From positions 620,001 through 684,000 of the forward strand of contig NZ_WNXC01000001.1 of the NCBI RefSeq assembly GCF_014172405.1: 64,000 nucleotides of DNA, read 5' to 3'. The notes under the pieces are model-generated. The model saw only the letters and a list, made by a program, of their open reading frames with translations, was not told the origin of the DNA and searched no databases. Numbering within the stretch: position 1 is the first letter of the stretch; the number at the start of each line of letters is the position of its first letter. The translations under genes and the position numbers were made by a program. Shown here piece after piece: positions 2 to 9,814 of the stretch. This DNA is from Pedobacter gandavensis (lineage in GTDB: Bacteria > Bacteroidota > Bacteroidia > Sphingobacteriales > Sphingobacteriaceae).

Positions 2-2281
2 GAAAAGGCGTCCTATTCTCAGATTCTTGAATTTGCAGTAGCTAAAGCAATTGAAGAAGAAACGCTGTTAGGGATGCTGAAAGCCATGGTAGAGGCCCAG
101 TTGTTGTTTACGGATTTAGATGCTAATATTATAGGGCCAGAGTATTTTGCGCGTACTGACCAGTCTCAGGGGGAAGCAGCCGGAGCATACTTGATAGCGG
201 AAAGAAAAGTATTGTCCGGAGATCTGATTAGCGCCCCATTGAAGTATTTATCTCCTTGTATCACTACTTTACTTGATTTAACTCAAAACAAAGTAAATGA
301 AGGTTTTAGTGTTTTTGTTAAGGAGTTTTATAAACGATATGAAGGGCAGGAGGTTTCCTTGATGAATGCGCTTGATCCAGAGTTAGGAATTGGTTATGGG
401 CAGTTAACTTCAGCGGCCAGGGAAGTAGGTTTGGCTCAGGAGCTGCCTGGGCATGTCCAAAAAAAGAGTTCAACTTTAATCCCTTGGACGGGTTTAACCA
501 AGGCATTGATGAAAGCCATGCTTAAAGGTGATCGTGGTCAGACTGAGGTGTTGCAGTTGAGAGATTTAATCCCTGCCCAGCAAGAGGAAAATAGTGTGAA
601 ACCTGCAAATAGCTTTAGTGTACTAGCGAGGTTTGCAGGGGATTTAGTCGTCTTGGATAGTATTGGTGGTTGCACTGCAAATGCTTTGGCTGGGCGCTTT
701 ACGCTGGCAAGTGAATCTTGTACTCAACATTGTAAAACAATCGCGGCAGCAGAGGCGGAAGCAAATCCAGCGGTGATTTTCTTTGATATGGCTTATATGG
801 CGGAAGGAAGAGTAGATAACATCAATCGTAGAAAGCAGATTTATACCTATGAATTACCTATTCTCAACTACTCCTGTAGCGAGGCGCTGATTGGCCTAGA
901 TGATATTTTAATACGGGTTCAAGGTGACGAAGTTATTCTATTTTCAAAGAAATATGGAAAAAGATTGATTCCAAGACTAGCTTCTGCCTACAATTACAGC
1001 AGATCAGACCTGTCTGTGTATCGGTTTTTATGTGATTTGCAGCATCAGGGAATCCAGTCTCAGGTCTTGTTTGATGTGCAGCAGCTGTTACCGGGGCTGG
1101 ATTATTACCCGAGAATTCAATACGAAAATCTGGTATTATCTGCCGCCAAATGGCGGGTAAAAGGAGCGAGACTGAAAGGAGGTTGTACGGTCGGGGCTCT
1201 GGATGAAATTGGGGTGCCTCGTTACTTTTCTGTTGGATCCGGAGATCAGACTTTGTGTTTCGACAAAGCTAATCCTATCGATCTTACATTCTTTAAATAC
1301 TACCTAAATCAATATGACGATTTCGTTATAACAGAGGTTATTGGTGTAGATAGTCAGGTGTTTAAGGATGAGTATGGTAAGTTTTACTTTACTCAGATTT
1401 TGTTGGCAATAAGTCACCAGGAGGAAATGTATCCGGCTTATATTTCCCGAGATGTCAGCCGTGATTCATTGACTGAACCGGTCATCATGCCTGGGAAAGA
1501 TTGGTTGTGTTATGAGATTTATTGTCATTCGGACAGGAGTAATTTCCTTTTATCAGAACGGATCAGAGGGTTTATCAACACCTATAGTGCTGCTTTCCAT
1601 ACTTGGTTTTTTATCAGGTATAATGATCCGAGCCCGCATCTTCGATTGAGGATTCAACTGAAGGATCAACAGTCGGGATATATATACATGACTAAACTCA
1701 TGGAGCTGTTTGCTCCAGATCTCCTGGAAGGCTTGATCAAAGATGTCCAGTTGAAAACCTATTACCGGGAGCTTGCCCGTTATGGTGGGCCTCAAATGCT
1801 ACTTACAGAACAGCACTTCAGTAGGGATAGTCTTTATGCGCTGGAGCTTCTTGCAAACCATCCAGAGGATTTTTCAATTTATACAAATTGCATCAGTCTG
1901 ATGAAAGCCGCGCTGGAAGCTCTGCAGTTGGAAAAGAAGGAAATACTGGGATTTGTCAGAAAGGTGCAGCGTGCTTTTGAGCAGGAGCACCACCTTAAAA
2001 CAGAAGATTTCAAAATGGTGAACCGGGAATGGACTAATTTTAAAGCCCAGCCTCAAGAAAATGGAGTTCAAAATGAATTGCAATTCAGGGAGCTTAAGCA
2101 GTCTTTCCTGAGTACCCTTGAGGCTACTGCGGTGGGACAAAGGCGAAGCTTGTACTGTAGCCTGTTTCATATGCACATCAACCGGCTATTTTCTGATCAT
2201 CAAAGGGCACATGAGCTCATCATTTATAGTTTCTTATACAAGCAAATGCAAATGGATCTGCAAAAGGCGACCTCGATTTAA
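2..2281 (+). CDS. Class I lanthipeptide dehydratase (LanB), 5'-truncated by window edge
   Basis: The reading frame is open from base 2, so the gene begins outside the window; 759 residues are visible. LanB enzymes are usually about 1000 residues, so roughly a quarter is missing. The enzyme glutamylates Ser/Thr of a precursor peptide using Glu-tRNA and eliminates glutamate to give Dha/Dhb. The C-terminal ~260 residues, from the DWLCYEIY segment on, form a typical SpaB-C/thiopeptide-type elimination domain, with FFIRYNDPSPHLRLR and the later ELARYGG motif. The upstream part fits the glutamylation domain (Lant_dehydr_N). The gene converges on the histidine kinase, with 12 bases between stops. 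A candidate substrate gene lies 1.2 kb downstream on the same strand. Family assignment is strong; the product and the rest of the cluster cannot be seen. Confidence 0.9.
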   Translation, partial: EKASYSQILEFAVAKAIEEETLLGMLKAMVEAQLLFTDLDANIIGPEYFARTDQSQGEAAGAYLIAERKVLSGDLISAPLKYLSPCITTLLDLTQNKVNEGFSVFVKEFYKRYEGQEVSLMNALDPELGIGYGQLTSAAREVGLAQELPGHVQKKSSTLIPWTGLTKALMKAMLKGDRGQTEVLQLRDLIPAQQEENSVKPANSFSVLARFAGDLVVLDSIGGCTANALAGRFTLASESCTQHCKTIAAAEAEANPAVIFFDMAYMAEGRVDNINRRKQIYTYELPILNYSCSEALIGLDDILIRVQGDEVILFSKKYGKRLIPRLASAYNYSRSDLSVYRFLCDLQHQGIQSQVLFDVQQLLPGLDYYPRIQYENLVLSAAKWRVKGARLKGGCTVGALDEIGVPRYFSVGSGDQTLCFDKANPIDLTFFKYYLNQYDDFVITEVIGVDSQVFKDEYGKFYFTQILLAISHQEEMYPAYISRDVSRDSLTEPVIMPGKDWLCYEIYCHSDRSNFLLSERIRGFINTYSAAFHTWFFIRYNDPSPHLRLRIQLKDQQSGYIYMTKLMELFAPDLLEGLIKDVQLKTYYRELARYGGPQMLLTEQHFSRDSLYALELLANHPEDFSIYTNCISLMKAALEALQLEKKEILGFVRKVQRAFEQEHHLKTEDFKMVNREWTNFKAQPQENGVQNELQFRELKQSFLSTLEATAVGQRRSLYCSLFHMHINRLFSDHQRAHELIIYSFLYKQMQMDLQKATSI

Positions 2282-3382: not shown

Positions 3383-3466
3383 TTCGTGTAAAAAAAAAAG
3401 GCGTTAGCGTAATACTTTTTTATTGACCATTGATCCGATCTAATTTTCATAAAAAAACTTATTATT

Positions 3467-3625
3467 ATGAAAAAAGACATCGTTTCGTTCGATCTAAAAA
3501 AAAGTACATTATTTGTATTCAAATCAAAAAAAAGTAAATCAAGACTTTTTCCAACTTTAACCGATCCAACCAATGGAACTGCAATATCCCATACTTGTAC
3601 ATTTCTCATTTCAGATGCTGAATAA
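3467..3625 (+). CDS. Candidate lanthipeptide precursor peptide, 52 aa
   Basis: ATG at 3467-3469, TAA at 3623-3625, 52 residues. It starts MKKDIVSFDLKKSTLFVF and ends GTAISHTCTFLISDAE. Residues 7-11 (SFDLK) resemble the FNLD-type LanB recognition box of class I leaders. Residues 19-26 are basic (Lys/Ser/Arg). The C-terminal part, from about residue 27, is rich in Thr/Ser (T30, T32, T35, T38, S41, T43, T45, S49) with one Cys (C44), enough for a single (methyl)lanthionine ring plus dehydro-residues. It follows a LanB on the same strand, lies between a kinase and its regulator, and is followed by a hairpin. No Shine-Dalgarno sequence is seen, which is normal here. A weak TAATTTTC -7-like element lies at 3441-3448. 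I infer a precursor from composition and context; I cannot match it to a named peptide. A spurious small frame remains possible. Confidence 0.62.
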   Translation: MKKDIVSFDLKKSTLFVFKSKKSKSRLFPTLTDPTNGTAISHTCTFLISDAE

Positions 3626-3635
3626 TTCAGCCCTT

Positions 3636-3681
3636 ACGATGAAATCTATTCAGAGATACTTCGGTTAGATTTCATCGTTTT
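3636..3681 (+). terminator. Hairpin after the candidate precursor gene
   Basis: Perfect 13-bp inverted repeat: ACGATGAAATCTA at 3636-3648 and TAGATTTCATCGT at 3666-3678, 17-nt loop, then TTT. It begins 10 bases after the precursor stop, so it can end plus-strand transcription. The left arm contains the TAG stop codon of the response regulator (3646-3648) and the right arm lies inside that gene's last codons. Read on the minus strand it is not followed by a T-run. Confidence 0.6.
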
Positions 3682-4392
3682 CTCCGCTAGGAACATCAGG
3701 AATTGTTTCTTGTATGTTGTACCCAATGGAATCTCCATCTTGTTACTCAGTACAATTGTATTTCCTTCTACTTTTTGAATGTAATTTACAGCAACAATGA
3801 AGGAGCGTTGTACCCGCACAAAATTGTTGATGTCTTGTAACTTGCATTCCAGTTCTTTCATGGTCAAATAAGCGACATGCGTTTCTGTGTTGGTGTGAAT
3901 TTTTACGTAATTGTTCAAACCTTCAATGGTAATGATATCTTTTATATTGATTTTTGTGTATTTCTGAATTTGATCTGTTTTAATAAAGAAGAAATCATCG
4001 GCAGGGACAATGGTTTTACTTGTGTTTTCCAAACTCATTAGTCTTTTGATCATTAGCGCAAATTTACTCATCGAGATTGGCTTCAATAAATACTCATTGG
4101 CTTGTACTCCGAAAGCTTCATAAGCATATTTGGAATGACCTGTGGTGATAATCAGGTATTTTGTTTTCGCTCTAATCGCTACGGAAAGATCTAATCCGGA
4201 TATACCAGGCATATCCATATCCATAAAGACAATATCAATGTTGTCTTCCTCAGAAATTTCCATTAATGCCTGTAAAGGATCAGTAAAATACTTTAGCAGC
4301 TGTAGATTAGGTATGGCTTCAATGTAATCTGCCAGGAGTTCTACAGCATGCTTCTCATCGTCAATAATGACGCAGTTTAATTTTTTATCCAT
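3646..4392 (-). CDS. LytTR-family response regulator
   Basis: 248 aa from the ATG at 4390-4392, which is preceded by AGGAGGAGATCA, a good Shine-Dalgarno. The frame is open a further 65 codons upstream, but that part is low-complexity and lacks domain character. An N-terminal receiver (1-120) has D11/D12, phospho-acceptor D58 in the FMDMDMP segment, and K104 in YLLKPIS. A C-terminal LytTR DNA-binding domain (about 140-245) includes the NNYVKIHT and RVQRSFIV strands. It is the likely partner of the LytS kinase downstream on the same strand. Given the adjacent LanB and precursor-like gene, it may control the lanthipeptide locus; that is inference. Its last codons form one arm of the hairpin at 3636-3678. 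Confidence 0.9.
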   Translation of the reverse strand: MDKKLNCVIIDDEKHAVELLADYIEAIPNLQLLKYFTDPLQALMEISEEDNIDIVFMDMDMPGISGLDLSVAIRAKTKYLIITTGHSKYAYEAFGVQANEYLLKPISMSKFALMIKRLMSLENTSKTIVPADDFFFIKTDQIQKYTKINIKDIITIEGLNNYVKIHTNTETHVAYLTMKELECKLQDINNFVRVQRSFIVAVNYIQKVEGNTIVLSNKMEIPLGTTYKKQFLMFLAEKTMKSNRSISE

Positions 4393-4930
4393 TGATCTCC
4401 TCCTATAATTCAAATACTTATTAATAAATCTAATCAAAAAATATATTCGCAACGTAAAAACCACATTTGACGTAATACATTTTTTTGTTACATGAAATTT
4501 ATTAAGGATCTGTAAAGATAAATCAAATTTGGGGATAAAACTACATTTCGAGCATAGGTTGCAGGATTCTGGACTTAAATAACTCATAAATTAGCTTAGA
4601 CTGACTATAAAGGCAATTATTTCATTAACCACATAAATCCAATCATTCACCACGTGAAACCTGTATTTGGTGTAAAAGAATTCGTGAATATAAAAGCCTT
4701 GATTACTTTTAGACCATCCCCCCTATAAAACAAGATTCCTGGTGCATGGAGGTGCATCAGGGATTTTAATTAAAAGAGATCTATACGCACTCAAATCATA
4801 CCCAAAAGGGGGTAACACCCCTTTACACTTCTTCCATATTATGTTTCTTGTAATTTTTTTCAAACCTTCATTGCAATAGCATTCTGGTATTTGGCAATTC
4901 CGCGCTTTTGTTATATTTGAGTTTAAATCT
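4393..4930. other. 538-bp intergenic region with hairpin
   Basis: AT-rich gap between the divergent response regulator and cupin genes. I found no coding frame longer than about 36 codons on either strand and nothing resembling a second precursor. A compact hairpin lies at 4805-4824: AAAGGGG, loop GTAACA, CCCCTTT. A short repeat of GGTGCAT occurs at 4741-4756. The cupin promoter occupies the right end. The leader of the response regulator mRNA may start in the left half. Confidence 0.6.
4890..4919 (+). promoter_or_regulatory. Bacteroidota-type promoter of the cupin gene
   Basis: TTTG at 4890-4893 and TATATTTG at 4912-4919, separated by 18 bases. This fits the known Bacteroidota consensus TTTG-N19-TAnnTTTG closely. 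The predicted transcription start, near 4926, would lie only a few bases before the ATG at 4931, so the mRNA would be nearly leaderless. Confidence 0.55.
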
Positions 4931-7195: not shown

Positions 7196-9814
7196 TTACC
7201 TCAAGGAGAGGGCAGTTGGTGGCTCATGGATCGGGAGAAGGATATGAAATATAGTCCCTTTTCCCGGTTCACTTTCCACCTGGATCGTGCCTCCAAGGTC
7301 TTCTACTTGTGTTTTAACCATAAATAGACCCATTCCTTTTCCATCAACAGCTACATCAAACCTTTTATAAAGGCCAAATAGCTGACTGCCATGTTTCTTT
7401 AGGTCAATCCCTTTCCCATTGTCTTCAAATACAATATTCAAATGTTTTCCGCTGAGGTAAGTTTTAATGATCATTCTAGGGGAGGTATGGTGCTGCCTAT
7501 ATTTTATACTGTTCAGAATCAGGTTATAAAAGATACTGTATAGGTAACCACGGACCGTAAAAATCTTCTCTTCTTCCAGTTGATATTCAAAAGTCATATT
7601 TTCACTTACAATCAGATTATTGATGCTGTCCTTGATTTCTTCCACAAGAACTTGTAGTTCTACGAGCTCTTTCATGCGCTCTGGCGCATCTTTTTTTACG
7701 GTGAGTACATAGTTAAGATCCTTGATTACGGTATCCAGGTTTTTGATGGAAGTACGTAATCCACGCATAAGTTCAGCAACTGCAGATGGGTCAGATTCCA
7801 TATCACTTAATAAATCACTAAGCCCCATGATATTCGCAACTGGTGCACGTAGGTTATGTGAAACCACGTACGTAAATTGTTCCAGATCTTTGTTTCTGCG
7901 AATCAATTCAGAAGTCATGGCATGCTGTGCTTTGGCAATATTTTTCTGTTCGGTAATGTCTTTGATGGATAATATGAATCCCCAATATTGCTGGTCTTCA
8001 TCATTTACTCCAATCCACTTTAAAGCATACCATTTTTCTGATCCATCTTTTTCAATGACATTTGTTTCATAGGACATGTTCTGCCCCTTGATCACATCAT
8101 CGACAATCTTTTGAAGTCTTCCTCTTTTGTTTTTAGCAAAATAATCGAATATACTATTCCCTTCCAGTTCTTTAAAGTGCCCACGGAATTCTGCAATTTC
8201 TTTTGCCATTTGGCTGTAGGAGATGATGTTTAGTTGTTGATCCACCAAAATGTAAGCGGCGTCAGTATGGTCTAATAAAGTACGGAGATTGGCTTCAGAT
8301 TTTTTAAGCGTATCCTCGGCAGCTTTTACGGCAGTCACATCCTGAAGCGTACCATACAGGCGGGTAGTGACTCCATCTTTATTAAATTCAATCCGGTTTT
8401 CTCCCTGTAGTATTTTCACTTCTCCTTTCGCATTTTTAATGCGGAAGCTGGTTTTCATGTTTTTTCCTAAGCGGATCAATTTATCGACTTCATACGCTAC
8501 CCGGAGTTTGTCTTCCGGATGAATAAGGTTATCAAAATATTCATTTATCGGAACTAATGATTCATCTGCCCAATAAATCTCTTTTAACCCGTCGGACCAG
8601 GTTAATTCCTGCTTGATCAGGTCGAAATTCCAATTCCCAATCTGCGCCATTTTTTGTGCTTCAGAAAGGACAGCTTCTGCCTGTTTGATCCGCTTTTCAG
8701 TTTCTTTCCATTGCGTAATGTCACTGATTACACCATCTACTGTGTGAATTCCCCCATCGAGAAAATGTGGGACTGCTTTTATCTCAATCCATCGAATGCT
8801 ATTGTCCTTTCCAATAATCCGATACTGGCTTTTTGTTTGTTCCCCTTTTTCCAATAGCACCCCATCACGCAGGGCAATATGGCGGTCTTCCGGGTGAATC
8901 ACATCGTACCATAAATCAGGATTTTCATGGAATTCCTCTAAATTGTAACCATAAATCCTGGAACAACCCGCAGACAACTTCATGTACCTATTTTGGCGGA
9001 TATCTTTTAGGTAGAACCCCTCATTTACGGCATCCAATAATTTTTCAATTTCATGGCTTACCTGCTCTTTTTCTTTTCTGTACTGTACTTGTTCCGTGAC
9101 TTCCATTCCGGAGAGGAGTAGACCATTGATCAGCCCCTTTGAATCGCGTAAAGCTTGAATCGTGAAATTAAAATAAGCACCATTTGATAAGGAAGGGCTG
9201 ACTTCTTTAATGATAAAAGTCTTTCCTGTTTCATATACCAGATCTGCTTTTTCATTTAAAAAAGCAAGGTCAGTACCTCCATAAACCTCCTTTAAAGTTT
9301 TGTCTATCATTAGATTATTTCCAATGTTATTTTGAAAATAAGTGTTTACAAAAGTAAAAATATGTTGAGGCTTCTTGAGGATGGCTATGGCAGAAGGGAT
9401 TTCTTGAAGTACCGCAATTTTTTTGAAACTATCATTCAAAGCGCATCGTTCTAAAGCTTGTGAAATGGCATTGGGTAATCTTCTTAGGCGGTCTTCGAAA
9501 AGGTAGTCAGCAGCACCATAACTCAGCATTTTAAGGGCTTCCTCTTCAAATGCTGGCTTGATGATACAGATAAAAACAGCTTGATGATCAAGCTCCTGCA
9601 GCCTGTTTAAGGCCTGGTGACCAATGGAGTGTTCTCCATCACAAAATCCAAGTACCACATTGGGAACGAAGCTTTTTAAAGTAAGGTTAAAATCAGATAG
9701 GTCTGATGTTTTTAGCTGTTGACATTTAAACTCTGACTGATCTAAAGTGTTTTTTATTAAACTATTATCATTAGCTGGATCTCCCAAAATAAGGATTCTC
9801 AGAATGTTTTTCAT
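7196..9814 (-). CDS. Soluble multi-PAS sensor histidine kinase with receiver-like N-terminus
   Basis: 872 aa with no membrane helices. Residues ~5-125 resemble a response-regulator receiver fold (ILILGDPAND at the start, FICIIKP with a Lys, ADYLFED) but the phospho-site region VVLGFCDGEHS is atypical. Four PAS/PAC-like modules follow (about 130-250, 260-385, 390-510, 520-640), with typical PAC endings such as GTLQDVTA and ILSIKDITEQ. The kinase core has HNLRAPVANIMGLSDLL as H-box, NLILNSIKY as N-box, DNGKGID and GMGLFMV as G-boxes. It is therefore a cytosolic redox/ligand-sensing kinase. No response regulator is adjacent, so its partner is unknown. Confidence 0.9.
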   Translation of the reverse strand: MKNILRILILGDPANDNSLIKNTLDQSEFKCQQLKTSDLSDFNLTLKSFVPNVVLGFCDGEHSIGHQALNRLQELDHQAVFICIIKPAFEEEALKMLSYGAADYLFEDRLRRLPNAISQALERCALNDSFKKIAVLQEIPSAIAILKKPQHIFTFVNTYFQNNIGNNLMIDKTLKEVYGGTDLAFLNEKADLVYETGKTFIIKEVSPSLSNGAYFNFTIQALRDSKGLINGLLLSGMEVTEQVQYRKEKEQVSHEIEKLLDAVNEGFYLKDIRQNRYMKLSAGCSRIYGYNLEEFHENPDLWYDVIHPEDRHIALRDGVLLEKGEQTKSQYRIIGKDNSIRWIEIKAVPHFLDGGIHTVDGVISDITQWKETEKRIKQAEAVLSEAQKMAQIGNWNFDLIKQELTWSDGLKEIYWADESLVPINEYFDNLIHPEDKLRVAYEVDKLIRLGKNMKTSFRIKNAKGEVKILQGENRIEFNKDGVTTRLYGTLQDVTAVKAAEDTLKKSEANLRTLLDHTDAAYILVDQQLNIISYSQMAKEIAEFRGHFKELEGNSIFDYFAKNKRGRLQKIVDDVIKGQNMSYETNVIEKDGSEKWYALKWIGVNDEDQQYWGFILSIKDITEQKNIAKAQHAMTSELIRRNKDLEQFTYVVSHNLRAPVANIMGLSDLLSDMESDPSAVAELMRGLRTSIKNLDTVIKDLNYVLTVKKDAPERMKELVELQVLVEEIKDSINNLIVSENMTFEYQLEEEKIFTVRGYLYSIFYNLILNSIKYRQHHTSPRMIIKTYLSGKHLNIVFEDNGKGIDLKKHGSQLFGLYKRFDVAVDGKGMGLFMVKTQVEDLGGTIQVESEPGKGTIFHILLPIHEPPTALSLR

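Follow-up and report, generated by a model that had tools for sequence, protein, structure and literature searches.

The window, a 64,000-nucleotide stretch of a Pedobacter gandavensis contig, contains a small cassette in which the gene for a 52-residue peptide lies on the plus strand between the minus-strand genes of a LytS-type sensor histidine kinase and a LytTR response regulator, downstream of a plus-strand gene for the dehydratase LanB (Table 1). The order LanB, kinase, peptide, regulator, with these orientations, is found across Pedobacter. The original prediction, which presented the peptide as a class I lanthipeptide precursor, correctly placed a LanB on the same strand about 1.2 kb upstream (it ends 1,186 bp before the peptide gene), and it mentioned neither the kinase nor the regulator that bracket the peptide. 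In full, lanB encodes 932 residues (G000:C11:619483-622281, the same as L006:15483-18281) and matches the Pfam families Lant_dehydr_N (7e-51) and Lant_dehydr_C (1.4e-50). The kinase keeps its place and orientation in related cassettes; a structure model of it built from three sequences has a mean pLDDT of 53, too poor to identify a ligand domain. The regulator is 94-95% identical in the nearest cassettes, and its start was taken at MDKKLN, the longer mechanical frame reaching 4587.

Table 1. Features of the cassette, in window coordinates
Feature	Position	Strand	Basis
LanB dehydratase, C-terminal 759 of 932 codons; start outside the window	2..2281	+	Pfam domains, full frame
LytS-type sensor histidine kinase, 362 aa	2294..3382	-	Pfam His_kinase PF06580, 1.9e-18
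LytTR-type direct repeat TTCGTGTAA-N12-TTAGCGTAA, upstream of the peptide gene	3383..3412	+	Pattern match
Putative Bacteroidota -7 promoter box TAATTTTC	3441..3448	+	Invariant in 10 aligned homologous upstream regions
Precursor peptide gene, 52 aa	3467..3625	+	ATG start, TAA stop; family profile, conservation
Inverted repeat and U-run, GATGAAATC...GATTTCATCGTTTT	3636..3681	.	Kept downstream of homologues
LytTR response regulator, 248 aa, start MDKKLN	3646..4392	-	Pfam Response_reg 1.6e-16, LytTR 2.4e-18

The full peptide is MKKDIVSFDLKKSTLFVFKSKKSKSRLFPTLTDPTNGTAISHTCTFLISDAE, beginning MKKDIVSFDLKK and ending CTFLISDAE. Its position, start and stop codons are exactly as first described, and the translation bears out SFDLK near the N-terminus (residues 7-11), a Lys/Arg-rich stretch (residues 11-26), a Thr/Ser-rich C-terminal half and a single Cys (C44). 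Shuffling the 263 bp region with its composition kept yields a plus-strand ATG frame of at least 52 codons in 2.4% of cases; such a length is not very improbable by chance, and conservation is therefore the deciding evidence for a gene. Homologues beside LanB genes in other Pedobacter, which had been proposed as a check, fill the corresponding slot in nine other genomes of the genus, at 58-80% identity and with the same LanB, kinase and regulator flanking them. These genomes include Pedobacter sp. PLR, in which the peptide is 80% identical, and Pedobacter polysacchareus; in further species identity is 71-74%. Conservation beside lanB extends to the reading frame itself and is not that of frameshifted DNA: pairwise dN/dS among the ten peptide gene sequences has a median of 0.22, and pairs differ on average by 0.206 at first, 0.172 at second and 0.360 at third codon positions. 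The 52-codon frame is a real conserved gene under purifying selection. That it might be a chance open reading frame, for which its frequency in shuffles could be cited, is vanishingly improbable given conservation at the codon level and a slot kept across the genus, and we rejected this explanation.

The gene forms a small, separate transcription unit, since a conserved TAATTTTC box precedes it and an inverted repeat follows its stop codon. The Bacteroidota -7 box has the consensus TAnnTTTG, which the putative promoter element fits. The inverted repeat is a probable bidirectional terminator, shared by the convergent peptide (+) and regulator (-) genes at their ends; a search of the cassette region against Rfam gave a chance match only, falling on this hairpin.

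A profile built from 27 diverse members (alignment A2) detects the peptide family at E <= 0.05 in 97 of the 145 genomes searched from the genus. In a sample of 400 genomes from the taxonomic family, it detects the peptides at E <= 0.001 in 98, which belong to 5 of 25 genera. The peptide thus belongs to a genus-wide Pedobacter family and is not a one-off. Neither the 27 diverse members nor the window precursor matched any NCBIfam or Pfam model above cut-off. The family consensus is MKxxxxxKLxKxTLFVFKSxK...TDPTxxTxTxxT, with KLKKxT[LAV]Fx[FY]K as its constant part; the likeness of SFDLK to an FNLD-like LanB-binding box, on which the original prediction drew, holds in the closest clade and does not extend to the family. 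By pattern we gathered 71 distinct precursors from the fetched loci, an undercount, as a divergent member at L093 escaped the collecting pattern and was spotted by eye. An LxKx5F arrangement (hydrophobic, K/R, F/Y) stands in register in 69 of the 71, against 25 precursors expected from shuffles to show the pattern in any register. In the window peptide it occupies residues 10-18, so that the leader would comprise approximately residues 1-22 and the core approximately residues 23-52. Cores have a median Ser/Thr content of 28%, and Cys occurs in five of the 71 precursors, never twice. In one subclade near-identical copies stand in tandem at this position (for example L062, L063, L066 and L074), and some genomes have at least six tandem copies. 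In many genomes the kinase, peptide and regulator also form a trio without an adjacent LanB (L053-L061, L068, L069, L072 and L076), and a LanB cassette is found at another site in such genomes. G122, with its trio at C1:604322 and its LanB cassette at C1:5737994, has two cassettes and one cassette-type LanB. The peptides of the LanB-free trios have a leader of the same type as the cassette peptides, so that the simple interpretation is that a single LanB modifies them in trans.

The peptide gene is preceded by a direct repeat that is the sole match in the window to the pattern TTCGTGTAA-N12-TTAGCGTAA (0.04 expected). Another repeat, TTAACGTAG-N12-TTGGTGTAA, is found 64 bp before the start of lanB (L006:15390-15419, the same as G000:C11:619390-619419), and the two have an identical 21-bp period and 9-12-9 bp layout. 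LytTR regulators bind 9-bp direct repeats, mostly 12 bp apart, just upstream of the -35 element (PMC6193735). Over the fetched loci (0.8 Mb) there are 40 matches at period 21, compared with 0-4 at each of ten other periods. More than half of these (22 of 40) are at most 400 bp upstream of one of the two genes: 11 precede lanB and 11 a peptide gene (the latter count excludes the window's own site and includes a weak-looking one at L060). In the close clade both lanB and the peptide gene have such repeats. The pattern was first derived from close-clade promoters, which leaves only the sites of the other clade as independent ones, and the majority of these flank the regulator gene instead of preceding the peptide. 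In the tandem-copy clade the strict repeat is located beyond the regulator gene, and peptide promoters have one good half-site and a weaker one. The window's genome overall is not enriched for a loose form of the pattern (13 matches versus 34 for the reversed control), and the evidence for these sites is therefore their comparative position and not their count. The repeats suggest that peptide and lanB are probably co-regulated, with the regulator as their predicted ligand. Half-site-like GACGTAATACATTTT and ATTTGGTGTAAAAGAATT are also present at window positions 4471-4478 and ~4680-4700 (+), between the regulator and cupin genes, and have no partner at 21 bp.

The window's genome (completeness 100%) encodes exactly one LanB and gave no match to LanC above threshold. 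LanB is present in 96 of the 97 peptide-bearing genomes of the genus, the exception being an 80%-complete genome, and in 20 of the 48 peptide-free ones (Fisher p 6e-16, a value that ignores relatedness and so overstates independence among genomes of a single genus). LanC is absent from 52 of the 97. These figures bear on whether the peptide could escape modification and serve the two-component system as a regulatory micropeptide, with LanB a mere neighbour acting on another substrate. That it keeps its place between the two regulatory genes at loci with no adjacent LanB would suit such a role, but the near-constant company of LanB, the promoter repeats common to lanB and the peptide gene, and a cassette in which no second short frame resembling a precursor was seen make it quite unlikely.

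A tree of 43 LanBs unites the 31 cassette enzymes in a single clade (support 100/100) set off by a long branch; the remaining 12, also from the genus, fall outside it, and nine of these are linked to a LanC. Cassette LanBs are also shorter, at 928-944 residues versus 1022-1078 for the intact others. R83, R87, T89, R464, R784, R786, E823, R826, H961 and R966 (NisB numbering), together with the N-terminal Arg matching NisB R14, are invariant in all 31. We take these positions to matter for NisB activity. With all eleven checked active-site residues conserved, the cassette LanB looks competent for both glutamylation and elimination. Three LanBs from outside the cassette clade (1024-1055 aa; L088:4390-9322, L090:3743-9311 and L091:4551-9475) likewise have a kinase and a LytTR regulator as neighbours, with no LanC adjoining; L091 has in addition a Cys-free, Thr-rich short frame at 9631-9771 (+) and a C39-type transporter. 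These loci are possibly a second type of LanC-free system.

What stands of the proposed class I lanthipeptide precursor is a precursor-like gene linked to LanB, probably co-regulated with it and furnished with a Bacteroidota-like leader. The lanthipeptide part is not supported, in view of the lack of LanC in the genome, the scarcity of Cys in the family and the lack of a clustered protease or exporter. A conventional class I lanthipeptide whose C44 forms a single (methyl)lanthionine ring, either without an enzyme or through a cyclase acting in trans, would account for the one Cys that follows several Thr/Ser in both the window peptide and its closest relative. It is very unlikely, as no LanC was found in the genome, 66 of the 71 distinct precursors have no Cys, and the cassette LanBs are separate from LanC-linked LanBs in the tree; as the chemistry of the family we rejected it, there being no LanC and no conserved Cys.

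Our preferred reading, to which we give a probability of about 0.55, is that the peptide is the precursor of a RiPP that is dehydrated by LanB, poor in Cys, ring-free and LanC-independent, is made under the control of a dedicated two-component system and most likely serves as an autoinducing signal. The kinase and LytTR regulator would activate the peptide and lanB promoters through the 9-12-9 bp direct repeats. LanB would bind the KLKKxTLFVFKSKK-type leader and, to judge from its catalytic residues, would use glutamyl-tRNA to dehydrate Thr and Ser of the TDPTNGTAISHT-type core. With LanC absent and usually no Cys, the product would stay an open chain bearing Dhb and Dha, which unlinked machinery would trim and export and which the cognate kinase would then sense, most likely as an autoinducer. 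The cassette LanB of a genome would also act in trans on the peptides of its LanB-free kinase-peptide-regulator copies. The parts of this scheme differ in strength: linkage, co-occurrence and enzyme homology make dehydration of the window peptide by the cassette LanB highly likely, an uncyclised product is likely, and signalling through the neighbouring kinase stands at slightly under even odds. The fullest form of the proposal, in which the ring-free dehydrobutyrine peptides made by a full-length LanB are autoinducers of a dedicated LytS/LytTR system and one LanB serves several such channels per cell, is put forward tentatively.

The cassette neighbours in the window include no linked leader protease or exporter, which counts against reading the peptide as a LanB-made RiPP. 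An intact C39-type frame is found elsewhere in the genome (G000:C11:1332518), and a C39-peptidase match with three stop codons at G000:C14:532891-533253 is apparently a broken gene. At L058:401-3596, a LanB-free kinase-peptide-regulator trio has two further genes beside it, one of them the frame of a C39-peptidase-like ABC transporter, which is a candidate exporter for the peptide family. The window cassette has no immunity gene either, which, like the missing exporter and protease, weighs against a linear LanB-dehydrated peptide that is secreted as a bacteriocin-like or other effector, its production switched on by a kinase that senses envelope stress or a competitor. Such an effector, for which common regulator sites at precursor and lanB, the higher dose afforded by tandem near-identical copies and the often antimicrobial nature of lanthipeptide-type products can all be argued, is rather unlikely. 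The LanB-free copies in several genomes, each with its own kinase and regulator, fit signalling better, and it is mainly this pairing of one kinase and one regulator with each peptide, as if in separate channels, that leads us to prefer a signal over a bacteriocin. The type of the kinase speaks against signalling: Pfam assigns it to PF06580 His_kinase only, with no HATPase_c_5 domain of the AgrC/ComD type used by known peptide pheromone systems.

As judged by its genes, the cassette resembles the initial half of the class I lanthipeptide pathway, but the peptide should not be filed as a lanthipeptide, because no LanC was found in the window's genome and core Cys is rare in the family. With nisin, the PedA15-type peptides of Pedobacter lusitanus and the pinensins it has in common a full-length LanB with intact glutamylation and elimination residues, a Ser/Thr-rich core and a leader that resembles the LxLxKx5L motif reported for Bacteroidetes class I precursors (PMC7268733), and its production, like that of nisin, may be under a two-component system. 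It differs from them in that the cassette has no LanC, Cys is nearly always absent, no C39 exporter or protease is linked in the window, the precursor sits between kinase and regulator on the opposite strand to both, and the LanB, at ~930 aa, belongs to a separate clade. The precursor also has no Gly-Gly cleavage site of the kind at which a Gly-Gly protease released PedA15.2, a lanthipeptide of P. lusitanus (PMC12328550). The arrangement of a kinase, a LytTR regulator and an adjacent small peptide gene is that of Agr, ComCDE and Sil, and 9-bp direct repeats with a 12-bp spacer before regulated promoters are those of LytTR systems (PMC6193735); unlike in Agr, ComCDE and Sil, the kinase is LytS-type PF06580, the peptide is a candidate LanB substrate, the host is a member of the Bacteroidota and no exporter is linked.

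LanC is likewise absent from this cassette and from the PEARL/pearlin systems and the thiopeptide and goadsporin pathways with their split LanBs, in which LanB-family chemistry proceeds without it. The cassette enzyme differs from those in being a full-length, two-domain LanB with no further tailoring enzyme seen; PEARLs are short LanBs without an elimination domain, and here the Lant_dehydr_C match (1.4e-50) and the elimination residues are intact. Linaridins are linear, dehydrated, Dhb-rich RiPPs made by non-LanB enzymes; a linear dehydrated product is also what is predicted here, with a canonical LanB as the linked enzyme.

The usual interpretation of a LanB is as one half of a lanthionine pathway. 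A large lanthipeptide survey used PF05147 (LanC) as bait, and the Cys-free precursors that it met were not counted as lanthipeptides (PMC7268733). Because mining of this kind starts from LanC, a LanC-free family could be overlooked, and a branch that occurs in about two thirds of sampled Pedobacter genomes would be invisible to it. Our literature search on LanB without LanC, dehydropeptides and Pedobacter pheromones, which covered few subscription-journal papers and not the structural study from Pedobacter lusitanus, returned no matching report. If the peptide is indeed dehydrated and sensed by the adjoining kinase, it would represent a peptide-pheromone class for Bacteroidota, a dehydrated pheromone in Gram-negative members of this phylum and a new RiPP family. 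The small size of the cassette makes both dehydration and sensing directly testable.

In the tandem-copy clade, at L078:7085-7290 (+) and ten further loci (alignment A4), the period-21 repeat beyond the regulator is followed by a TAATCTTTA box and then by a strongly conserved, apparently non-coding stretch, TGTTTGCCAAAAAC ... TGTGTAGCCTG...CAGGCCATACA, with a predicted hairpin and almost no covariation. No Rfam family matches this stretch, and it could be a small RNA under the same regulatory system.
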